Source of the DNA: Nitrospirota bacterium
GTDB taxonomy: Bacteria; Nitrospirota; Thermodesulfovibrionia; Thermodesulfovibrionales; UBA6898
DNA length: 64,000 nt
Assembly (NCBI GenBank): GCA_003252075.1
Contig: QKDO01000080.1
Span: 1 to 64,000, forward strand
Direction of reading: 5' to 3'
The notes beneath the pieces were generated by a model, which made no database searches, was not told the origin of the DNA, and saw only the letters and a program-made list of their open reading frames with translations. The translations under genes were made by a program, and so were the position numbers. Positions 10,047-64,000 of the stretch are shown here, piece after piece; within the stretch, counting starts at the first letter, position 1, and every line of letters starts with the position of its first letter.

Positions 10047-12283
10047 CTATGCGCATTTCGTGAAGCCGCAACTGTGGCAGACTGCGCAGCCTCCTTCGTG
10101 CTCTACTGCTCCGCCGCATTCGGGGCATGCGCCGATGAATACATTAGCGCCGTGGTGCTTGCCGCCGTTGCCGTTGTCTTTGCTTTTTGAACCCTTTTCC
10201 ATGTATTTCTCAAGCGCTTTGGCGATCGCATCAGAGCAGGACGTGATCTTGCCGCCGTTCGCCCAGGTCTGATTGTGGCAGGTGATGCCCTTGAGCTGCT
10301 TGATGATCACGTCAGGTTCGATGTTCGAACGGAGCGCGAGGCTTACAAGTCTGCCGATAGCCTCTGCCTGGCTGGATGCGCAGCCTCCCGCCTTGCCCAT
10401 GTGGGTGAAGAGCTCGAAAAGATGGCCGTGTTCATCCTCGTTTACCGTGATATAGATGGTGCCGCACCCAGTGTTCATGGTGCGGGTCTCGCCGATGATC
10501 GAGTCAGGCCTTTTCCTCGGTACGATCTTGGCCTGGGTTGGTTCAGGCTCGGTCGTTTTTGCGGCTGTCTTGCCGGTAGACAGGACCTGTTCGTCGCGGG
10601 AGCCGTCGCGGTAGACCGTAACGCCCTTGCAGTTCAGCTGGTACGCAAGCATATAGACGTCTTCGACGTCCTTGGGCGATGCACTGTGGGAGAAGTTCAC
10701 GGTCTTGGAGACCGCGTTGTCTACATAGTCCTGAAAGGCAGCCTGCATCGCAACATGCTCGATCGGTTTGATGTCATGCGCAGTCACGAAGACCGCCTTG
10801 ACATCTTCGGGTATCTCGTCAAAGTCACGGAGCGACCCCTTGTCAGCGATCCTCTCCATGAGTTCCCGGGTCCAGAACCCGCGCGCTTTGGCGACCTTCT
10901 CGAAGTGGGGATTGATCTCGAGGAGCTTGGTGCCCTCCATGACGTTCCGCACATAGGAGACCGCGAAGAGCGGCTCTACACCGGAGGAACAGCTGGCTAG
11001 AATCGAGAGCGTGCCAGTGGGCGCGATCGTCGTCACGGTGGAGTTCCGCAGCTTCATCTGACCGTCATAGATGCTTTCCTGATAGTTCGGGAAGACACCC
11101 CTGTCTTCGGCCAGGGATGACGATGCGTTTTTCGACTCTTTCTGGATAAAGCCCATCACATCCTTCGCAAGCGCGATAGCCTGTTCGGAGTTATAGGGTA
11201 TGCCCATCATGATAAGCATGTCAGCCCAGCCCATAACGCCGAGGCCGATCTTCCTGTTCGCCCGTGTCATCTCAGCGATCTTCTGAATCGGGTACCGGTT
11301 GACGTCTATGACGTTATCGAGGAAATGCACGGCCTTCCAGACGGTCTTTTTGAGCCTCGGGTAGTCGACGCTGCCGTCGGTCACGTACTTCGAAAGGTTG
11401 ATCGAGCCGAGGTTGCAGGACTCGTAGGGAAGCAGCGGCTGTTCGCCGCAGGGGTTCGTCGACTCGATCTCGCCGATCTTCGGTGTCGGATTCGATGCAT
11501 TGATCCTGTCGATGAAGACAATGCCGGGCTCACCGTTCTTCCATGCGTGGTTCACGATAAGGTCAAAAACCTCGCGCGCCATGAGCGACCTGACCACGTT
11601 CTTGGTCCGGGGATTGATCAGTTCAAAGTCGGTATCGTCCTTGACCGCCTGCATGAAGCGGTCGGTGATCGCGATGGAGATATTGAAGTTATTAAAGCGT
11701 GAATTGTCATCCTTAGCCGTGATGAAGCCGAGGATGTCCGGATGGTCCACGCGGAGGATGCCCATGTTCGCACCCCTCCGGGTCCCGCCCTGCTTGACCG
11801 CTTCTGTTGCCGTATCGAATACGGTCATGAACGAGACAGGGCCGGACGAGACGCCTTTTGTTGACCCCACGATATCTCCGCTCGGCCTGAGGTTCGAGAA
11901 GCTGAAGCCGGTCCCGCCGCCCGACTTATGGATAATGGCAGTGTGCTTGACCGCATCGAAGATCGACTCCATGGAGTCTCCCACCGGGAGCACGAAACAT
12001 GCGGAGAGCTGGCCGAGCTTTCTGCCGGCGTTCATGAGCGTAGGGCTGTTTGGCAGGAAGTCTGTAGAGGTCATCATGCCATAGAACTCCTCTTCAAGGA
12101 GCATCACGTCAGCCTCTGCTTTGCCGTAAAGAAGGTCTGCGCGTGCAATGGTCTTTGCCACCCTCCGGAAAAGGTCTTCAGGCGTCTCGACGACCTTGCC
12201 TTCCTCGTCCTTCTTCAGGTATCGCTTTTCCAGGACCTTCAGGGCGTTTGGGGTAAGACCAACTGCTGATGAGGTGCTCTTCA
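10047..12283 (-). CDS. nrdJ: Adenosylcobalamin-dependent ribonucleoside-diphosphate reductase (class II)
   Basis: FLPNSPTLMNAG, SGGGTGFSFSNLRP, NPCGEQPLLPYESCNLGSINLS, C-terminal CPECGG/CHSCG; likely start MKSTSSAVGL. Confidence 0.95.
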
Positions 12284-53480: not shown

Positions 53481-54827
53481 TCACCGGTTGTCCGGAAGCC
53501 ATATCCTGAACGACGTACCCTTTCCCTCAGCGCTGTCCACCTGAATACTCCCTCCCATGACCTCAAGAAGCTCCTTCACAATCGCCAGTCCCAGGCCGAT
53601 ACCGGTGGACGTGTCACCTCGATAGAATCTCTTAAAGACGAGTTCCTTCGTATGATCGGGAATGCCGATTCCCGAATCCCTGATCTCGATGAAAAACCCC
53701 TTCTTATCTCTGCCGCAATCCAGCCTGATCCAGCCCGTTTCCGTGTATTTTATCGCATTCGACAGTATGTTCTGCAGCACCCTCTCAAGCTTTTCAGGAT
53801 CAGTGACAACACGAAGGTCTTCACGCTTCATGGCCGACATCTCCAGGCCCTTTTCGGCTGCAAGGGGAACCATGGTTGACGCCAACCGCGAAAGAAACTC
53901 AGGGAGGTCAATCTCTGCATAGTCAAGACTCGCAAAAAAGCTGGCTTCTGCCTTGGTGATGTCCTCAATGCCTTCAACGAGCCGTATGAGTTTTTCCACT
54001 TCAAGCCGGATGTTTTCGAGCCCCTGGGCATGATCGCTTACCACGCCGTCGATCATTGCCTCGGTATGCGCCTTCATCACCGCCAGGGGTGTCCGCAATT
54101 CATGGGCGATGTTCGAGGTGAGGCGTCTTCTGAGGGAATCCTCCCGTTGGAGCGCCTCTGCCATGTAATTGAAACTCTCCGCAAGGCGGCCGATCTCATC
54201 GCCTTTGGTGCCCGATACCCTGACCGTGAGGTCGCCCTTTGCCATTGCCTCAACCGCATCCTTCATCTTCCTGAGGGGACGGGAGAGAAAGAGCGCAAAG
54301 AAGAGGGCAAGCAGAAGCGCCCCTCCCCCGGCAATGACCGAAGAGACGATAAGAAAATATTTCCCGCGCTCCCTGAAAAGCACCTCTTTCTTGTCTGTTT
54401 CGGGTCTGTTCAGTCTCCTTGCCAGCAGGCTGCCGATCTCTTTTCCCCCCTCATAGAGCGGATAATCTTCAAACTGACCGGTTGCCGAAGAAAGATCGAC
54501 AATTGACGACATCCGGCGTTTCATGGATGGGGACAGCATGCTCATTACCGCGGCAGCGTTGGTGACTTCTTTTCCGTCCATGTCAAGGATACGGACGTCG
54601 AACCCGAGCATAACTGCCCAGTGAAGCGCGTCATGCAGCGTCGTGTAGTCCCATGTTCCGTCAGCGTAGCTTCCCTCGACCGATGCCAGGACCCAGTAAA
54701 GCTTGTCTACCTTTGTGCCGTTGACATAATCTTCAAAATCCCGGGTTATGAGCTGTTCGTAGATAAGGTGAGAGAGGAGAACAAGGAGAATGACGGCGAG
54801 GAACGCGAGAAAAAGCTTATTCCGCAT
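53481..54827 (-). CDS. HAMP-containing sensor histidine kinase
   Basis: SNIAHELRTPLAVMKAHTEAM; ILSNAIKYTETG; GLGLAIVKELLEVMGG. Confidence 0.94.
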   Translation of the reverse strand: MRNKLFLAFLAVILLVLLSHLIYEQLITRDFEDYVNGTKVDKLYWVLASVEGSYADGTWDYTTLHDALHWAVMLGFDVRILDMDGKEVTNAAAVMSMLSPSMKRRMSSIVDLSSATGQFEDYPLYEGGKEIGSLLARRLNRPETDKKEVLFRERGKYFLIVSSVIAGGGALLLALFFALFLSRPLRKMKDAVEAMAKGDLTVRVSGTKGDEIGRLAESFNYMAEALQREDSLRRRLTSNIAHELRTPLAVMKAHTEAMIDGVVSDHAQGLENIRLEVEKLIRLVEGIEDITKAEASFFASLDYAEIDLPEFLSRLASTMVPLAAEKGLEMSAMKREDLRVVTDPEKLERVLQNILSNAIKYTETGWIRLDCGRDKKGFFIEIRDSGIGIPDHTKELVFKRFYRGDTSTGIGLGLAIVKELLEVMGGSIQVDSAEGKGTSFRIWLPDNR

Positions 54828-55521
54828 CAGGGGTTCCGATGAACTTGTAGCCTACGCCATAGACCGTCTGGATGAATTCAGGAGACTTCGAGTCTTTTTC
54901 GATCTTGTGACGCAGGTTCTTTACATGTGCGTCGATGGTACGGTCATATCCTTCAAAGTCATATCCCTGGACAATGTTCACGATCTGGTTTCGCGAAAGA
55001 ATCCTCCCGTGGTTTTCGGCAAGCGCCATCAGGATCTTGAACTCCGTCAGGGTCAACTGAAGGGGCGAGCCTGCCCTTACTACCTCATGCCGTTCCAGGT
55101 CCATTTGAAGGCTGCCCCTGTTATAGCTCAGGATCTTCCTCTTCGTCTTGCCGGCCCTTCGCAGGTGTGCCTTTACCCGAGCAACGAGCTCCCGCGGGCT
55201 GAAGGGCTTGACCATGTAGTCATCAGCTCCTATGCCCAGTCCTTTGATCCGGTCCTCCTCACCGCTCTTTGCCGTGAGCATGATAATCGGGACGTTCGAA
55301 CTTTCCCTGATAATCCTGCAGAGTTCCTCCCCTGCCATATCAGGGAGCATGAGGTCGAGGATAATGATGTCCGTTCCCTCCCGGAAGAACGTGAGGGCAT
55401 CAGCGCCGTTTTCAGCGTTCCTTACCCTGAAGCCCTCTTTTTCAAGATAGGCCCTGACGATATCCGAGATCTTCTTTTCGTCCTCAATGATCAGGACGGA
55501 ATCTTTTCTGCCAGTATCCAT
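54817..55521 (-). CDS. OmpR/PhoB-type response regulator
   Basis: REC domain VLIIEDEKKISDIVRAYLEKEG; winged helix TLTEFKILMALAENHGRILSRNQIV. Confidence 0.94.
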   Translation of the reverse strand: MDTGRKDSVLIIEDEKKISDIVRAYLEKEGFRVRNAENGADALTFFREGTDIIILDLMLPDMAGEELCRIIRESSNVPIIMLTAKSGEEDRIKGLGIGADDYMVKPFSPRELVARVKAHLRRAGKTKRKILSYNRGSLQMDLERHEVVRAGSPLQLTLTEFKILMALAENHGRILSRNQIVNIVQGYDFEGYDRTIDAHVKNLRHKIEKDSKSPEFIQTVYGVGYKFIGTPDAE

Positions 55522-56368
55522 AGTAGGCATCTCCCAGGAGCAAGGTTAGGGCGGTCAGGACCGCCCCTGCTAATACATCTACCACATAATGGTATCTGAG
55601 GTAAACTGTCGAGAAGACCAGTGCCGCGACGCAGGGAAGGAACAGCAGGAAGAGCCTCTTCTCGTATTTCCGGGAGAGAACGAGGACCGTAAGGGCGATG
55701 CCGGTATGTCCGCTCGGGAACGCGTCCCGCTTAACGCCCTCAAGCCTGTTCAGAAGCTCCTGCACCGGGCCGGTAAAAAACAGGCCGCGGAGGTCCGTTT
55801 GCTGCAGATGGTTCAGGGTGAACCGAGGGCCAAGTGCGGGAAAGAGCAGGTATCCCGCATAGGAGAGGTAAAAGCAGAACATGATCAGGAAGAGGGAATG
55901 GTCAAATGCCGCGTCATCCCTTTTCATGAGGAGGACCGCCCCGAGCGTTATGGGGAGAAAATAATAGCTTGCATATGCCAGCTGAAGCAGATCGGTCAGC
56001 AAGGGTGTCATGATCTGTTCCATCATGACCGTAGGGTGCCCCCCAAACAGCAGATAGTCGAGCCTGATAAGCAGAGGATCGATGTCCCGCGGATTGATGG
56101 TGTGCACAAGATGCTCAAGACTGTCAAAGATCGCAAGGATGGATATTGTCGGAAATATCAGGTGATAGCCCCAGTGAAACATGCTGCCCTTTCTCCTGAA
56201 CAGAAGCAGGAGAGCCTGGGTGAGGAAGAGGCCGGAATAGAGCAGGACGAGATACGCTGCATGGTCCAGCACACGGCGGAAGGCGAAGGTAATGATCGTG
56301 AGCGTAAGGAGAAAGAAGAAGTTCAGGGCATCGGCAGGCCTGAGCCGAAGAAGAAACCTGAGCATCAC
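55484..56368 (-). CDS. PAP2-superfamily phosphatase
   Basis: DAFPSGHTGIALTVLVLSRKY; STVYLRYHYVVDVLAG. Confidence 0.92.
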   Translation of the reverse strand: MMLRFLLRLRPADALNFFFLLTLTIITFAFRRVLDHAAYLVLLYSGLFLTQALLLLFRRKGSMFHWGYHLIFPTISILAIFDSLEHLVHTINPRDIDPLLIRLDYLLFGGHPTVMMEQIMTPLLTDLLQLAYASYYFLPITLGAVLLMKRDDAAFDHSLFLIMFCFYLSYAGYLLFPALGPRFTLNHLQQTDLRGLFFTGPVQELLNRLEGVKRDAFPSGHTGIALTVLVLSRKYEKRLFLLFLPCVAALVFSTVYLRYHYVVDVLAGAVLTALTLLLGDAYYGYWQKRFRPDH

Positions 56369-56859
56369 AGCTTCCGGAGGACCCGCAAGAGAGCCTTGTC
56401 CTTTTTCGACGGCTGCCGCGCGTTACCTTTTTGCGGCATGGCATCGTCATCATCTTCCGGATTCCCGCAACCCTCGCTGCCTGTCCGGTTGCCGCACGGT
56501 TCCAGTCGTTTCCGGAACAGGTCAGAAGGCACCGGAACGGCTCCTGCCGACCATGCATGCTGTGAGATATCCCGGTCAGAGGTAATGACGATCCGCTCCT
56601 TTCCGTCCTGCATGAGCATCTTCCGGATCAGGTCATCAGCCCTGTCTCCCAGCCGCGAGTAGATGATGCGTATGCCGCCTGTTGCGAGATGTTCTTCGCG
56701 ATGGCCGCCGGTTTTCCAGCCGTCGAACACAACGGTTATGTCATGACCCTTCAGCTTTTTGTAGCCGATAAGCTGTTGTATGAGCTCCTCCCGTTTCTTC
56801 CGGAGGTCCCGATGCTGTATGCCGATGAGGTTATACCCGTCTATGATGATAGCGGTAAT
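56365..56859 (-). CDS. YacP/Rae1-like NYN-domain protein with likely ATT start codon
   Basis: Extended translation (I)TAIIIDGYNLIGIQHRDLRKKREELIQQLIGYKKLKGHDITVVFDGWKTGGHREEH...VITSDRDIS; AGGAGG 6 nt upstream of ATT. Confidence 0.85.
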   Translation of the reverse strand: MTAIIIDGYNLIGIQHRDLRKKREELIQQLIGYKKLKGHDITVVFDGWKTGGHREEHLATGGIRIIYSRLGDRADDLIRKMLMQDGKERIVITSDRDISQHAWSAGAVPVPSDLFRKRLEPCGNRTGSEGCGNPEDDDDAMPQKGNARQPSKKDKALLRVLRKL

Positions 56860-56896: not shown

Positions 56897-56965
56897 TTGC
56901 CGCATAGAAGAGGCTGTCGACTGTCCTGACGGTCGCCACCGGATTGCTACAACGAAGTTACTTAA

Positions 56966-56974
56966 TGGTATAAT
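56966..56974 (+). promoter_or_regulatory. Extended -10 promoter for Ehr/Hyf-like operon
   Basis: TGGTATAAT ~80 nt upstream of the first gene, divergent from NYN promoter. Confidence 0.5.
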
Positions 56975-57054
56975 GCAGCAGCATTTTCACGGGGGTAAGA
57001 GGTGACAGGACAACAGAGCAAGAACGCGACGAGCTGCTGCATCGGTGCTGCCCG

Positions 57055-59097
57055 ATGATGGACCCCCTGAACCTTGCAGGGAGCGCAATAATCCTGCTCC
57101 TGGGTACTGCTGCGCTTGCACTCTTCCTGGGCAGGAAGCAGCGACTGCTGCTCGTTGCAGGCTTTGTCCTTTCCGCTGTTGCCTCGTTGTCAGCCACGAT
57201 TGCCGGTGTCCGGGTGGTCGGCTGGAGTACCACCAGCCAGGCAATCATGTCGATCGGCCTTCCCGATCTGCCCTTTCATCTGCGGCTTGACCCCCTTGCA
57301 GGTTTTTTCATCACCGTTGTGGGGATACTTTCATTTGTCGTGTCCATCTATTCCATAGGTTACGTCAGAGAGATCAGCAAACAGCGGCCGATCGGCCGTC
57401 TCGTCATCTTCTACGCCTTGTTCCTTGCCGGCATGTTCATGGTCATCATTGCCGACGATGCCCTCTTCTTTCTCGTATCCTGGGAGCTTATGGCAGCTGC
57501 TTCCTATTTCCTTGTCCTGTTTGAGGATGAACGCGTCGAGAACAGGAGAGCGGCTTTCCTGTATATGGTCGTTGCCCATGTGGGCGCTCTGGCGATACTC
57601 CTGTCGTTCGGGGTCATGTCCGGACTGGCTACCGGCTTTGAGGGGTTCCATGGATATACCTTCGACGCCATGCGCCAGGCGGAGTTTCCTGCTGTCTGGG
57701 CAACCGCCGCCTTTTTGCTCGCATTCTTCGGTTTTGCGGCAAAGGCCGGGGTGATCCCCCTGCATGTCTGGCTTCCCGAGGCCCATCCGGTCGCCCCGTC
57801 CAATATATCGGCCCTGATGAGCGGCGTGATGCTCAAGACCGCCATATACGGCATTGTCCGTGTCACCTTTGATCTCATCGGGGTTTTCCCCTGGTGGTGG
57901 GGATCGATTGTACTGGTATTCGGCCTCATTTCAGCTGTCATGGGCGTGCTCTATGCACTGATGCAGCACGATCTCAAGAGGCTCCTGGCGTATCATTCGG
58001 TCGAAAATATCGGGATCATCCTCATCGGCATAGGTCTGTCCATGATCTTCCGCTCCTTTGATTTTCCCCTGCTCTCCTCTCTTGCCCTCATTGCCGGACT
58101 CTACCACACGTTAAACCACGCGATCTTCAAAGGGCTTCTCTTCATGGGTGCCGGTGCGGTGCTTCATGCCAGCCACGAGAGGAACATGGAGGAAATGGGC
58201 GGATTGATACATTTCATGCCCTGGACTGCGGCACTCTTCCTCGTGGGAAGTGTTTCCATAGCAGGCCTTCCGCCCTTTAACGGTTTTGTCTCTGAATGGC
58301 TTACCTTCCAGGCATTCCTGCTTTCACCATCGCTGCCGAGTCCGCTGATGAAGCTTCTCATCCCTCTGGGAGCGGCGCTCCTGGCCCTGACAGCAGCTCT
58401 GGCGGCCGCCTGCTTTGTAAAGGCATTCGGCGTGACCTTCCTCGGACACTGGCGCGGCCATCATCAGCCGCACGTTCAGGAAGTGGACTGGTTTATGAGA
58501 AGCGGCATGATTATGGCGGCTCTTTTGTGCCTTGCCCTTGGTGTGCTGCCGACCGTCATTATTGACTGGATGGACACCGTTCCGGAGCAGCTTGTGGGAT
58601 CGCGCATCGGTACGACAGCGGGCGCCTTCGGCTGGATGTGGCTGACACCAGTCGCACCCGCGCGGGCCTCCTATTCCGGACCCCTTGTATTTCTGGTGAC
58701 GCTGTCGGTCATCGTCATCGCCTACCTGCTGCTGCATGTGCGATCAGGATCGATCACGCGGGTGCCGCTCTGGGACTGCGGATTCGAGAAGGTGACGCCG
58801 CGCATGCAGTACACCGCCACGGCCTTTGCCATGCCCATACGACGGATATTCGGCTTCTTCTTCCATATCAGGGAACAGGTGAAGATGAACCCGCAGGCCC
58901 CCCATCGGACCGTCCCGGGGAGGATGCAGTATACGCTCCGCATACGGGACCGTTTCTGGGGATGGCTGTACCGGCCGCTTGTTGATGCCAGCTTCTGGCT
59001 ATCGCGCCGGGTGGGACGGCTCCAGCAGGGCCGTATCCAGGCGTACCTTATTTATTCCTTTGTGACCATTATCGTGCTGCTCCTGTTCCTGCGATGA
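57055..59097 (+). CDS. HyfB-like (NuoL/MrpA-type antiporter-like) subunit
   Basis: 680 aa multi-TM; SWELMAAASYFLVLFE; KAGVIPLHVWLPEAHPVAPSNISALMSGVMLK. Confidence 0.93.
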   Translation: MMDPLNLAGSAIILLLGTAALALFLGRKQRLLLVAGFVLSAVASLSATIAGVRVVGWSTTSQAIMSIGLPDLPFHLRLDPLAGFFITVVGILSFVVSIYSIGYVREISKQRPIGRLVIFYALFLAGMFMVIIADDALFFLVSWELMAAASYFLVLFEDERVENRRAAFLYMVVAHVGALAILLSFGVMSGLATGFEGFHGYTFDAMRQAEFPAVWATAAFLLAFFGFAAKAGVIPLHVWLPEAHPVAPSNISALMSGVMLKTAIYGIVRVTFDLIGVFPWWWGSIVLVFGLISAVMGVLYALMQHDLKRLLAYHSVENIGIILIGIGLSMIFRSFDFPLLSSLALIAGLYHTLNHAIFKGLLFMGAGAVLHASHERNMEEMGGLIHFMPWTAALFLVGSVSIAGLPPFNGFVSEWLTFQAFLLSPSLPSPLMKLLIPLGAALLALTAALAAACFVKAFGVTFLGHWRGHHQPHVQEVDWFMRSGMIMAALLCLALGVLPTVIIDWMDTVPEQLVGSRIGTTAGAFGWMWLTPVAPARASYSGPLVFLVTLSVIVIAYLLLHVRSGSITRVPLWDCGFEKVTPRMQYTATAFAMPIRRIFGFFFHIREQVKMNPQAPHRTVPGRMQYTLRIRDRFWGWLYRPLVDASFWLSRRVGRLQQGRIQAYLIYSFVTIIVLLLFLR

Positions 59098-60038
59098 ACC
59101 TCTATCCCTTTATGACAGAGATCCTTCAGATCATGATCGTCCTGGGCATTTCGCCTGCCTTTGTCGGATGGGTGAGAATGCTGAAGTGCTGGTCCCAGGG
59201 CAGAACATCGGCCGGTGTGTTTCAGCCCTACCGGGACATCAGGAAGCTTTTTGCCAAAAATGTGGTTCTTGCCGAGAACGCTTCCTGGGTATTCCGCTTT
59301 ACGCCCTACCTCGTCTTCGGAACGACGGTGCTTGCCGGAGGAATTATCCCTATGCTTTCGGTTGATCTTCCGTTGTCCGCAACGGCCGATGTCATCGTCC
59401 TCGTTGCTCTTTTTGCCATAGCCCGTTTCTTCATTGCCCTGGCAGGCATGGACATCGGCACGGCGTTCGGCGGCATGGGATCGAGCAGGGAGATGACTAT
59501 TGCCTCCCTGGCAGAACCTGCTATGCTCATGGCCATATTCACCCTGTCGCTGGCCTGCAGGTCAACTTCCCTGTCGCAGATAGTTACGGTGATCTTCAGC
59601 GGGCAGATCCAATTGCGGCCCTATCTTGCCTTTGCCTTCCTTGCCTTTGTCCTGATCAGCCTTGCGGAGACCGGCAGAATCCCTGTGGACAATCCTGCGA
59701 CGCACCTGGAGCTTACCATGGTCCATGAGGCAATGATTCTTGAATATTCGGGACGACACCTGGCGCTTATCGAGTGGGCGGGGATGATGAAGCTGATGCT
59801 GTTTATGGCGCTGGGGGCAGTCCTGTTTTTTCCCTGGGGTATCGATGTGACGTCGACCGCTGCCGGTGCGTTGCGTGCATTCCTGTTCCTGCTGCTGAAG
59901 CTGGGAGCATCCGGTGTGGTCCTTGTCCTGATAGAGACCGGGCTGGCGAAGATGCGGCTGTTCCGTCTGACCGAATTCCTGGGGTCTGCATTCCTGCTGG
60001 CAACACTGGGCATGCTGGCCTATTATATCCTGGACTGA
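59094..60038 (+). CDS. HyfC/HycD-like (NuoH-type) membrane subunit
   Basis: GRIPVDNPATHLELTMVHEAMILEYSGRHLALIEWAGMMKL. Confidence 0.93.
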   Translation: MNLYPFMTEILQIMIVLGISPAFVGWVRMLKCWSQGRTSAGVFQPYRDIRKLFAKNVVLAENASWVFRFTPYLVFGTTVLAGGIIPMLSVDLPLSATADVIVLVALFAIARFFIALAGMDIGTAFGGMGSSREMTIASLAEPAMLMAIFTLSLACRSTSLSQIVTVIFSGQIQLRPYLAFAFLAFVLISLAETGRIPVDNPATHLELTMVHEAMILEYSGRHLALIEWAGMMKLMLFMALGAVLFFPWGIDVTSTAAGALRAFLFLLLKLGASGVVLVLIETGLAKMRLFRLTEFLGSAFLLATLGMLAYYILD

Positions 60039-60706
60039 TGATGGACCTGCAGATCGTTTCACAGATAAGCAGTTTTCTGGCAGCCCTGGTGCTGCTCACC
60101 GCGTTTGGCATGCTGGTGCAGAAGAGGGTCTACGGCCTCATCCATCTGTTTGCCTGGCAGGGCCTCTTCCTTTCGCTGAACACCGCTGTTGTCGGCTTTG
60201 TCGCGAACAAGCATCACCTCTACATCTCGTCCGTACTGACCCTTTCGCTGAAGGTGGTGCTTCTCCCGTATATTCTCCATGTGCTGATCAACCGGCTCAA
60301 GATCCGCAAGGAGGTCGAGACGGTAGTCAATATCCCCATGACCATGATGATCGGCATTGCCCTGGTCATTTTTTCCTATCACCTTACGGCGCCCATCCGG
60401 CAGCTGTCCACGCTCATAACCCGGTCAACGCTTGCCGTAGCGCTTGCCACGGTCATGCTCGGGCTTCTCATGATGATCACGCGAAGACACGCCGTCACGC
60501 AGATTATCGGATTCCTCGCCCTTGAGAACGGCCTCTTTTTCGCGGCGACAAGCGCCACCTACGGGATGCCGCTTGTCGTCGAGCTGGGGGTTGCGCTCGA
60601 TGTGCTCATCGCGGCGTTCATCTTCGGCATATTCTTCTTCCATATCCATACCACCTTTGACACCCTCGATGTGGAGCAGATGGCAAAACTGAAGGAGGAG
60701 AACTGA
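60038..60706 (+). CDS. HyfE-like (hydrogenase-4 component E, NuoK-type) subunit
   Basis: ~222 aa multi-TM; IIGFLALENGLFFAAT; ELGVALDVLIAAFIFGIFFFHI. Confidence 0.9.
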   Translation: MMDLQIVSQISSFLAALVLLTAFGMLVQKRVYGLIHLFAWQGLFLSLNTAVVGFVANKHHLYISSVLTLSLKVVLLPYILHVLINRLKIRKEVETVVNIPMTMMIGIALVIFSYHLTAPIRQLSTLITRSTLAVALATVMLGLLMMITRRHAVTQIIGFLALENGLFFAATSATYGMPLVVELGVALDVLIAAFIFGIFFFHIHTTFDTLDVEQMAKLKEEN

Positions 60707-60708
60707 CC

Positions 60709-62169
60709 GTGAACAGCAGCGTCATGCTTCTCGTGCTTCTCGGCGTGCCGTTCTGCGCCAGTGTCGTGCTCGCCTTTGTGGGAGACCGGAAGTTTGCCCC
60801 TGAGATAAACATCCTGGGTTCCGCAGCCACCTTTGCCGTCGGTATTGGCCTGGCGCTTGAGGTATATGTGCAGGGTCCCATGCTTGCAGGAGGAAGGTTC
60901 TTCTTTGTCGACGCCTTCAACGTCTATCTCTCGGTGCTCACGGCCTTCGTGTCGATGACCACCGCGGTTTTCAGCCGGCGGTATATGCGCAGGGAGCGTG
61001 AACATGGCCGTGTCGGCCATGTGGGGATGCGGTTTTATCATGCCATGTTCCAGCTCTTCATCTTTGCCATGCTTCTCTGCCTCCTGACCAATAATGTCGG
61101 TGTCCTCTGGATCGCTATGGAGCTTGCGACGCTTTCCACGGTGCTGCTGGTATCGCTGTACCGGACGCCGACCGCGATTGAGGCGGCATGGAAATATTTC
61201 ATCCTCTGCGGTGTCGGCATTGCCCAGGCCCTTTTCGGGACGGTACTGCTCTATTTTGCCGCTGAAAAGGTGCTCGGCGAAGGAGGCGAGGCACTGCTCT
61301 GGACGAACCTGATCAGGGTGAGCGGCAGCCTCGAACCGACGGTACTGTCCCTCGCCTTTGTTTTTCTTATGGTCGGGTATGGGACGAAGGTCGGGCTGGT
61401 ACCCCTGCATAACTGGCTTCCTGATGCCCACAGCGAGGGTCCTACACCCATCTCCGCGGTGCTCTCCGGGCTTCTCCTGAACATAGCACTCTATGCGCTG
61501 GTGAGGTGCAAGGTGCTTGTCGACGGGTCTACCCATACGCACCATGCCGGCAATATCATGATGGGCTTCGGCCTTCTCTCGATCATTGTTGCCGCTTTCT
61601 CACTCCTGCGGCAGAAGGACATCAAGCGTATGTTCTCCTATTCATCCATAGAGCATATGGGTGTTGCAACCTTTGCCTTCGGGCTCGGCGGCCCCATAGC
61701 AACCTTCGGTGCTCTCCTGCATATGCTGGTGCACAGTCTCGCCAAGTCCGCCATATTCTTTACGGTTGGCCATGCATCCCAGATGCACCGGTCACAGGAC
61801 ATGGCGAGGATCAGAGGGTTGTTCAGGGGCAATCCTCTTGTCGGCTGGGGTCTCATGTTCGGCGTAATGGCCATTGCCGGGATGCCGCCCTTTGGGATAT
61901 TCACGAGTGAATTCCTAATACTCACGGCAACCATGAAAGATGCGCCCTATCTTACCCCGTTCCTTCTTCTCGGGCTTGGCGTGGCCTTTGCAGCGCTTTT
62001 CCGGAAGGTGCAGCCCATGGTGGCAGGCGATGTGCCGTCATACCAGAAGGCGATGAAGGTGGCTCACCTGCCGGTGATCCTGCACCTCGTGCTTGTACTG
62101 GCCATCGGTCTCTATATGCCCGACTTCCTCAATTCCTGGTTCCATACTGCGGTGGAGCTGCTGAAATGA
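60709..62169 (+). CDS. HyfF-like (NuoN/MrpD-type) antiporter-like subunit
   Basis: GYGTKVGLVPLHNWLPDAHSEGPTPISAVLSGLLLNIALYAL; FSYSSIEHMGV. Confidence 0.93.
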   Translation: MNSSVMLLVLLGVPFCASVVLAFVGDRKFAPEINILGSAATFAVGIGLALEVYVQGPMLAGGRFFFVDAFNVYLSVLTAFVSMTTAVFSRRYMRREREHGRVGHVGMRFYHAMFQLFIFAMLLCLLTNNVGVLWIAMELATLSTVLLVSLYRTPTAIEAAWKYFILCGVGIAQALFGTVLLYFAAEKVLGEGGEALLWTNLIRVSGSLEPTVLSLAFVFLMVGYGTKVGLVPLHNWLPDAHSEGPTPISAVLSGLLLNIALYALVRCKVLVDGSTHTHHAGNIMMGFGLLSIIVAAFSLLRQKDIKRMFSYSSIEHMGVATFAFGLGGPIATFGALLHMLVHSLAKSAIFFTVGHASQMHRSQDMARIRGLFRGNPLVGWGLMFGVMAIAGMPPFGIFTSEFLILTATMKDAPYLTPFLLLGLGVAFAALFRKVQPMVAGDVPSYQKAMKVAHLPVILHLVLVLAIGLYMPDFLNSWFHTAVELLK

Positions 62170-63746
62170 GCATGCTCAGGGATGCAATCATGCAGGCATT
62201 CGGCGAACATGTCCGGTTTGACCATGGCCTGCATCCTTCTTCGGTGGCTACCTGTCTCGTATCCAGGGACCGTTTCGGCGAGGCGGCCAAGGTGATGAAA
62301 AAGGCCTATGCCCTCCTTGCCGCAGAGTGGGCAGCCGATGAGACCTTGCTCGGCCGCGGGTATGGCGTGTTTGCCTGTTACCGGTGGGGAAATGAATATC
62401 TGATCGTAAAGACCGAGGTCCCCTCTGACGATGCATGGTTTCCCAGCCTCTCCCGCCGATTTGTTCCGGCATTCCGGTTTGAACGTCAGATCATGAGCCT
62501 GATGGGTATCACGCCTGCAGGGAATCCTGATGTCCGGCCATGGATAAAGTTCGAGGACTGGCCGGAGGATGCCTGGCCGCTCAGGAAATCCTTTGACGCC
62601 GCGCAGCAGATGCCGCGGGTCAGGGGAGAATATCCGTGGACCCGCGCTGAGGGTGAGGGCGTCTATGAGATACCGGTCGGCCCGGTGCATGCCGGTATCA
62701 TAGAGCCGGGGCATTTCCGGTTTCAGGCGGTGGGCGAAGATGTGATCAATCTCGAGGAACGTCTGGGCTATGTGCATAAAGGCATAGAAAAAAAGTTTGA
62801 ATCCCTTGCCTGGCAGGACGGCGTGAAACTTGCGGGCAGGGTCTCCGGAGACACTACGGTCGCCCACAGCATTGCCTACTGCAGGTCCCTGGAATCCATG
62901 ACCGGGTGTCCGGTGCCGCAGCGTGGCCACTGGCTCAGGGCCCTGTTCCTTGAACGTGAGCGCATAGCGAACCATCTCGGCGATATCGGCGCGATCTGCA
63001 ATGACGCTGCCTTCGCCTTCATGCTCTATCAGCTCTCACGGCTCAAGGAGTTGCTGCTGCGCACCAACCTCAGGCTTTTCGGCCACCGGTTCATCATGGA
63101 CAGGGTCATCCCCGGCGGCGTTGCCGTCGACATCGATCCTGCCGGGAAACGGGAGATCTTTGCGGAGATGGAACTGCTGCATAAGGAATTCGAAAGACTG
63201 GTATTGATCTACGACGAGAACCCCTCCCTGGAGGACAGGGTCAGGGATACGGGGATACTGAAGCCGGCAGCGGCAAGGGAACTCTGTGTTGTCGGGGTTG
63301 TTGCCCGGGCGAGCGGGCTGAATCTCGATTGCCGCATCTTTCATCCCTTCCCCCCCTACGACCGGCATGACTGGATGCAGCTCGATGTGCCTGTGCTCAT
63401 CTCCGGGGATGTGCACGCGCGTGCCTGGGTAAGGATCCAGGAGGTGCGGGAGTCGTTCAGGATCATCCGCAAGATACTCGAAGACATGCCCGATGGCGAT
63501 ATCAGCGTGCCCTGCGCTCAGCCCCCTGCGGACACGACCGGCTTTTCAGCGGTCGAGGGCTGGAGAGGAGAGATCATCTACTGGCTTCAGTCCGGTCCCT
63601 CAGGCGAGGTCAACCGCTGCATGGTGAGAGACCCGTCCGGGGTCAACTGGCTCGGCCTTGAGCTGGCAGTGCTCGGCAATATCGTGCCCGATTTTCCGCT
63701 CTGCAACAAGAGCTTCAACCAGTCCTATTCGGGGCATGACCTGTGA
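62166..63746 (+). CDS. HyfG/HycE-like fused large subunit (NuoC+NuoD type) lacking NiFe-ligand cysteines (Ehr-type)
   Basis: PGHFRFQAVGEDVINLEERLGYVHKGIEK..RVSGDTTVAHSIAYCRSLESMTG..; C-terminus NIVPDFPLCNKSFNQSYSGHDL. Confidence 0.92.
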   Translation: MSMLRDAIMQAFGEHVRFDHGLHPSSVATCLVSRDRFGEAAKVMKKAYALLAAEWAADETLLGRGYGVFACYRWGNEYLIVKTEVPSDDAWFPSLSRRFVPAFRFERQIMSLMGITPAGNPDVRPWIKFEDWPEDAWPLRKSFDAAQQMPRVRGEYPWTRAEGEGVYEIPVGPVHAGIIEPGHFRFQAVGEDVINLEERLGYVHKGIEKKFESLAWQDGVKLAGRVSGDTTVAHSIAYCRSLESMTGCPVPQRGHWLRALFLERERIANHLGDIGAICNDAAFAFMLYQLSRLKELLLRTNLRLFGHRFIMDRVIPGGVAVDIDPAGKREIFAEMELLHKEFERLVLIYDENPSLEDRVRDTGILKPAAARELCVVGVVARASGLNLDCRIFHPFPPYDRHDWMQLDVPVLISGDVHARAWVRIQEVRESFRIIRKILEDMPDGDISVPCAQPPADTTGFSAVEGWRGEIIYWLQSGPSGEVNRCMVRDPSGVNWLGLELAVLGNIVPDFPLCNKSFNQSYSGHDL

Positions 63747-64000
63747 TACGGATACTGCGCCAGATCTTTAGGACCGGTATCGTGACGGAACCGCTGCAGC
63801 TGGTGGTTGAGGAAGATATCAGTACGGTCGGCACAAAGCTCGAGGAGGCAATACGGAAAAGGTTCGGCAGAAGCCTCACGATCAGGCAGGTGGATGCCGG
63901 TTCATGCAATGGCTGCGAGCTGGAGATCCATGCCATGAACAATCCTATCTACAACTGCGAACGGTTCGGCATACACTTCACGGCATCCCCGCGATTCGCT
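63743..64000 (+). CDS. HyfI-like (NuoB-type) small subunit, truncated by window end
   Basis: GTG start overlapping the previous stop; VIRILRQIFRTGIVTEPLQ...VDAGSCNGCELEIHAMNNPIYNCERFGIHFTASPRFA. Confidence 0.92.
   Translation, partial: MIRILRQIFRTGIVTEPLQLVVEEDISTVGTKLEEAIRKRFGRSLTIRQVDAGSCNGCELEIHAMNNPIYNCERFGIHFTASPRFA

Follow-up and report, generated by a model that had tools for sequence, protein, structure and literature searches.

A Nitrospirota ehr operon, predicted to be functional, encodes a group 4 hydrogenase relative in which the four nickel-site cysteines are replaced

Introduction

Energy-converting hydrogenase-related (Ehr, also Ech-hydrogenase-related) complexes are relatives of complex I that are widespread, occurring in Nitrospirota, Geobacter, Mariprofundus, Rhizobium, Azospirillum, Burkholderia and Variovorax. 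Their six-gene set has been named ehrABCDLS (PMC6688271). In Geobacter, Ehr proteins are produced at levels that vary with the electron donor (PMC7894505) and are more abundant in syntrophic coculture (PMC8691401), and the Ehr of strain KN400 has been called 'nonfunctional' (PMC13194489, published in 2026). A first-pass annotation of the DNA described here noted that Ehr complexes have no known reaction; this still holds for type A Ehr, the type of the present locus, as the literature searched assigns them neither a substrate nor an electron partner and demonstrates ion transport for none of them.

Here we describe an ehr operon in a window of 64,000 nucleotides, the whole stretch of DNA that was analysed. 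New in this work are a case for Ehr being functional, the exact residues that replace the nickel site, and the finding that type A lost a separate electron-entry subunit along with its nickel site.

Results

The ehr operon and its subunits

The window comprises bases 1-64000 of contig C119 in a genome (G000) of 2.86 Mb in 146 contigs, whose nearest relatives belong to the Nitrospirota, order Thermodesulfovibrionales; the closest is MAG MnB_6 (locus L008), with 86% EhrL identity. The ehrABCDLS-type operon occupies 57055-64249 on the + strand. Its six open reading frames follow the order HyfB-C-E-F-G-I, as first annotated. Adjacent frames share 4 nt at three of the five junctions, and 2 nt separate HyfC from HyfE and HyfE from HyfF. 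EhrA (57055-59097, 680 aa) is a HyfB-like, NuoL-type antiporter subunit that matches the NCBIfam hydrogenase 4 subunit B model with 837.6 bits, and EhrD (60709-62169, 486 aa) is its HyfF-like, NuoM-type counterpart, matching the subunit F model with 769.9 bits; both scores are above cut-off. EhrB (59094-60038, 314 aa, PF00146) is HyfC/HycD/NuoH-like. EhrC (60041-60706, 221 aa) is HyfE-like with a NuoK-type C-terminal part and was assigned from Pfam and NCBIfam profiles, the HyfE model scoring below its own cut-off. The large subunit EhrL (62166-63746, 526 aa) is HyfG/HycE-like and matched NuoD/NuoC profiles, every one below cut-off. Subunit assignments were concordant between Pfam and NCBIfam. 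The HyfI-like small subunit EhrS starts at 63743, runs to the window's last base at 64000 and ends 249 bases beyond it; it was completed from the same contig (L004:9743-10249).

The contig ends at 65573, about 1.3 kb after EhrS. A ferredoxin-like HyfH/HyfA partner had been suggested past 64000, but none was found up to the contig end; the interval holds a toxin-antitoxin pair, a PIN-domain toxin with a MazE-type antitoxin (64621-65195; L004:10621-11195), and repeats. The assembly probably stopped because of an 84-nt direct repeat (L004:10342-10425 and 11490-11573, copies 83% identical), the second copy of which lies at the contig end. In another locus, about 6.5 kb of unrelated ORFs separate ehrL from ehrS (L009:11582-18145).

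Replacement of the nickel site in EhrL

The closest solved structure to EhrL is E. coli HycE (7z0s_E, E 1.7e-59, phmmer against PDB). In the HycE alignment the columns of the four Ni-Fe cysteines are occupied by S227 and T230 in the L1 motif RVSGDTTVAHSIAY (62838-62879) and by S520 and G523 in the L2 motif NKSFNQSYSGHDL (63705-63743), which forms the protein's C-terminus. The loss of all four ligands and the L1 start at 62838 are therefore as first annotated; NQSYSG, which had been placed at 63711-63743, lies within that interval, exactly at 63717-63734. The replacements recur in a set of 85 EhrL sequences that contains many close relatives and also spans Geobacter, Nitrospinota, Mariprofundus, Rhizobium, Azospirillum, Burkholderia, Variovorax and one methanotroph. 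Position 227 is Ser in 84 of the 85 (Thr in one), position 230 is Thr or Ser in 84 (Ala in one), position 520 is Ser in 84 (Asn in one), and G523 is invariant, as are G228 and D229 beside the replaced cysteines. Because the same residues recur across the set, in other assemblies and other phyla, they reflect neither chance nor sequencing error.

An alternative that these alignments bear on is that Ehr is a complex I-like quinone oxidoreductase core, in which quinone would enter the chamber and electrons would be shuttled between it and a soluble carrier. Sequence and fold near NuoD, NuoB and NuoH speak for it, as does the invariance of D280, the counterpart of Nqo4 D139. His38 and Tyr87, however, the residues of Nqo4 that hold the quinone head group, are paired by the phmmer alignment with I179 and G228 in 85/85 EhrL sequences, while E180, the counterpart of the hydrogenase glutamate MbhL E21, is invariant (roles of Nqo4 H38 and Y87 and of MbhL E21: PMC7684303). 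The cysteine spacing of EhrS, CxxC as in hydrogenases and not the adjacent CC of NuoB, also argues against a quinone core, which we regard as improbable.

An AlphaFold model of EhrL built from 17 sequences reached pLDDT 67.5 and pTM 0.75. Foldseek with this model returned 7z0s_E first (E 5.4e-22, TM 0.71), followed by E. coli complex I NuoCD. Residues 91-204 and 491-526, pocket regions included, fell under pLDDT 50, and we consequently make no claim on pocket geometry.

Maturation, selection and expression

EhrL terminates at the hydrogenase cleavage position, with no extra residues in 85/85 sequences; the position is the one established for HycE. HypD was not matched in seven type A genomes, six of them 88-100% complete, as would be expected of a Ni-free complex. 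HypD was dropped as a general negative, being nearly universal in the order and encoded in G000 on another contig, so that only the seven HypD-less Ehr genomes are informative; G000 also has true [NiFe] hydrogenases on contigs C73 and C138. Since Ni ligands and a cleavable C-terminal tail are both absent and seven Ehr relatives lack HypD, the complex is not a [NiFe] hydrogenase, in agreement with the first-pass annotation.

For all six genes dN/dS was 0.027-0.082 in comparisons with L008, L009 and L011, values that are approximate since dS often exceeded 1. By these estimates the operon is shown to be intact and under purifying selection. Together with the near-invariance of the replaced residues in EhrL, the low dN/dS indicates that the ehr operon here is conserved and encodes a functional machine. 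A decaying hydrogenase without function, as claimed for Geobacter KN400 (PMC13194489), would explain the loss of the Ni ligands, but it is already contradicted by the selection data (dN/dS below 0.1 in six of six genes), by motifs that are invariant across phyla and by the production of the proteins in Geobacter. We consider it very improbable; the 'nonfunctional' label took absent hydrogenase activity as absent function.

Phylogeny and Ehr types

A tree of 34 large-subunit rows, midpoint-rooted and with long branches for MbhL and L125, placed the Ehr sequences in one clade, split from [NiFe] plus Nuo with support 100/99 in the unrooted sense. The proposed kinship with Ehr complexes is supported. 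The Geobacter H2geo and Nitrospira Ru_enrich sequences fell with the window EhrL in one supported clade (100/98); GSU0739-0745 were not among the rows. Because Ehr splits from [NiFe] plus Nuo, the loss of the four cysteines in Ehr looks to have been separate from their loss in complex I.

At least four Ehr-like types occur within the order. Type A, that of the window, has the motifs RxSGD[TS][TS] and NKSFNxSYxG and six genes, and type B has RxSG[TV]SS and NKSFNLSYSG and likewise six genes. Type C (L121, L124 and Variovorax_2) has a ferredoxin-like domain fused to the EhrS N-terminus. Type D (L122 and L123) has a degenerate ferredoxin domain and has lost one proximal cysteine, with GNPP/GQPP for GCPP. 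Small subunits with a fused ferredoxin-like domain were located at L121:9620-10357, L124:7125-7868 and L006:2667-3416, and those of type D at L122:7371-8126 and L123:7418-8191.

A single predicted cluster and conserved pump residues

The proximal [4Fe-4S] ligands of EhrS, C55, C58, C122 and C152, are present in 82/82 sequences; two of the four lie in the CNGC motif encoded at 63905-63916. No conserved ferredoxin-like operon member was found among 1269 genes in 80 loci, in which CxxCxxCxxxC proteins were sporadic. A HyfH/HyfA-type gene was likewise absent from the annotated type A operons of Variovorax, Methylocalor, Rhizobium (two), Azospirillum and Burkholderia. The sole clear NuoI of G000 sits in the nuo operon on contig C48, and weaker matches were other ferredoxin-like proteins. 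As no type A operon checked encodes a HyfH/NuoI ferredoxin-like subunit, the [4Fe-4S] cluster of EhrS is predicted to be the only redox centre of type A Ehr. Two Cys-bearing group 4 loci of the same order (L120 and L125) carry a HyfH/NuoI-like gene, so that in type A loss of the Ni site accompanies loss of a separate electron-entry subunit.

The gene content also bears on a formate-linked complex, in which Ehr would be paired with a formate dehydrogenase (FDH-Ehr) or would release hydrogen from formate. Geobacter Ehr subunits do increase on formate (PMC7894505), and an FDH-Ehr has been proposed in Riflemargulisbacteria (PMC6349859). Type A Ehr is nevertheless adjoined by no conserved formate dehydrogenase or ferredoxin gene, and H2 from formate would require the missing Ni site. 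A formate link is accordingly, in our estimate, slightly less probable than the quinone core.

Pump residues are conserved throughout. EhrA E144, K230, H355 and K359, which correspond to NuoL E144, K229, H338 and K342, are invariant in 64 relatives; EhrB E141, E206 and E217 (NuoH E157, E220 and E228) are invariant in 65; and EhrD E138, K227, K306, H342 and E401 (NuoM E144, K234, K312, H348 and E407) are invariant in 76.

A PTS-EIIA/HTH regulator and other neighbours

In 19 of 54 loci with EhrA and at least 1.5 kb of upstream sequence, a regulator with HTH_17 and PTS_EIIA_2 domains lies directly upstream, and in most of these loci its gene overlaps the next by 4 nt. Of 120 genomes of the order, 17 encode a full-length homologue; every one of the 17 belongs to the 41 with a type A Ehr, and the 79 others have none (Fisher p 8e-10, with relatedness of genomes ignored). 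This regulator, on which a literature search returned nothing useful, probably controls ehr expression in many relatives. L008 and the window are colinear to 56897 and again from 57202; the regulator gene found there in L008 is cleanly missing from the window (56897-57054), and no homologue was found anywhere in G000. The gene has evidently been lost in the window genome. In a Geobacter locus such a regulator is coupled to ehrA-2, which encodes an additional antiporter subunit resembling EhrA (L068:2071-4754), and a similar regulator and antiporter pair lies apart from the operon in Geobacter L069. Zetaproteobacterial, Nitrospinota and rhizobial operons have other HTH regulators at the corresponding place.

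Genes for a two-component system, a PAP2 phosphatase and a YacP-like NYN protein adjoin the window operon on the - strand (53481-56730). The PAP2 and NYN genes recur beside Ehr in L008, L011, L018 and type B L118. These genes were rejected as parts of Ehr, being kept only in close relatives (PAP2/NYN also at L118). A link to oxygen respiration was considered as well: COX1 was found in 32 of 41 Ehr genomes and 31 of 79 others (p 5e-5). This association was not used because it tracks family structure and a strong COX1 is missing from nine of the Ehr genomes.

Discussion

The redox-driven ion pump of the first-pass annotation is plausible, and the reading that we prefer, at a probability of about 0.5, is of a redox-linked ion translocator in which the EhrS cluster and a metal-free EhrL pocket drive, or are driven by, EhrA and EhrD. 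A group 4 hydrogenase membrane arm, made up of the antiporter-like pumps EhrA and EhrD with EhrC and EhrB, would carry EhrL and EhrS. Redox change at the single EhrS cluster would be linked to protonation or small-ligand binding in the emptied, metal-free pocket, with E180, R225, D229, D280, R467 and S520 as its predicted residues. EhrB would relay the change to the channels of EhrA and EhrD, which would then move protons or sodium ions, or the process may run backwards. The electron partner would have to be a small molecule or else a soluble protein whose gene lies elsewhere.

Some observations count against the redox-pump reading. A redox pump would not be expected to have one cluster and lack a module for electron entry, and the neighbour genes encode regulators, stress proteins and transporters and no oxidoreductases, a setting as compatible with ion homeostasis as with respiration. 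The proposed mechanism has its main rival in a redox-gated ion exchanger with no net flow of electrons: the EhrS cluster would be a sensor or structural, and an Mrp-like cation/proton antiporter would have its conformation set by pocket and cluster. Besides the missing electron-entry subunit, this agrees with the CitMHS/NhaB-like transporter, TauE, Usp, CBS and PTS-EIIA neighbours of several loci (the Usp, CitMHS/NhaB-like, CBS and TauE genes lie farther upstream, in a minority of loci) and with the pH homeostasis suggested by the Methylacidiphilum authors (PMC6688271). The divergent type D complexes, short of one proximal cysteine, point the same way, L123 adjoining PTS_EIIA_2 and Usp genes. 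On the other hand, the invariance in type A of four cluster cysteines and the pocket residues goes beyond a scaffold's needs, and the ferredoxin domain fused to EhrS makes type C look wired for electrons. We judge an exchanger without net electron flow unlikely, at something over one chance in five, and return to the redox-linked translocator as the preferred account.

A further suggestion, which is speculative and a shade more doubtful than the exchanger, is that type A Ehr translocates ions under redox gating, with one cluster and without an electron-entry module, and is tied in Nitrospirota to the PTS-EIIA phosphorelay through its dedicated regulator. It would be an evolutionary halfway form, a respiratory core reused for ion homeostasis and not respiration. 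The regulator could reveal the conditions under which Ehr is used.

Comparison with known systems

Complex I core subunits (NuoB, CD, H, L and M) share with Ehr their fold, pump residues and independently absent four cysteines. Complex I has the Nqo4 His38/Tyr87 quinone pair, the proximal CC motif of NuoB, and NuoI, E, F and G, whereas Ehr is without these and has I179, G228 and CxxC instead.

The MBS sulfane sulfur reductase (PMC7684303) is similarly group 4-derived, has no Ni site and reduces something else. MBS differs in its three clusters, a proximal cluster with only three cysteines and the missing MbhL E21 glutamate; Ehr retains the glutamate and has a single cluster, held by four cysteines.

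The E. coli formate hydrogenlyase and hydrogenase 4 (HycE and HyfG) resemble Ehr in subunit homology and order and provide its best solved match. HycE and HyfG, however, keep the four cysteines, and their operons carry HyfA/HyfH ferredoxin subunits, the HycI protease and hyp genes, in which Ehr differs. The marks of group 4 [NiFe] hydrogenases that Ehr lacks are the four L1/L2 cysteines, the C-terminal extension removed by an endopeptidase and a HyfH/HycF-type subunit.

The Ehr complexes of Geobacter (GSU0739-0745), Methylacidiphilum, Sulfobacillus and Nitrospira are alike in their six genes and in a large subunit without CxxC motifs, and EhrL of the Geobacter loci is 64-67% identical to that of the window. 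Geobacter differs in its additional ehrA-2 and, at L068, in having the EIIA/HTH regulator in the operon, where the window has lost it. The window operon encodes all six subunits (A, B, C, D, L and S) in synteny, and its EhrL groups with Geobacter and Nitrospira members. The first-pass annotation had ranked it as the best candidate for an undescribed system, a view that gives way because the same six genes are already known as ehrABCDLS; the operon is a further instance of the known Ehr family.
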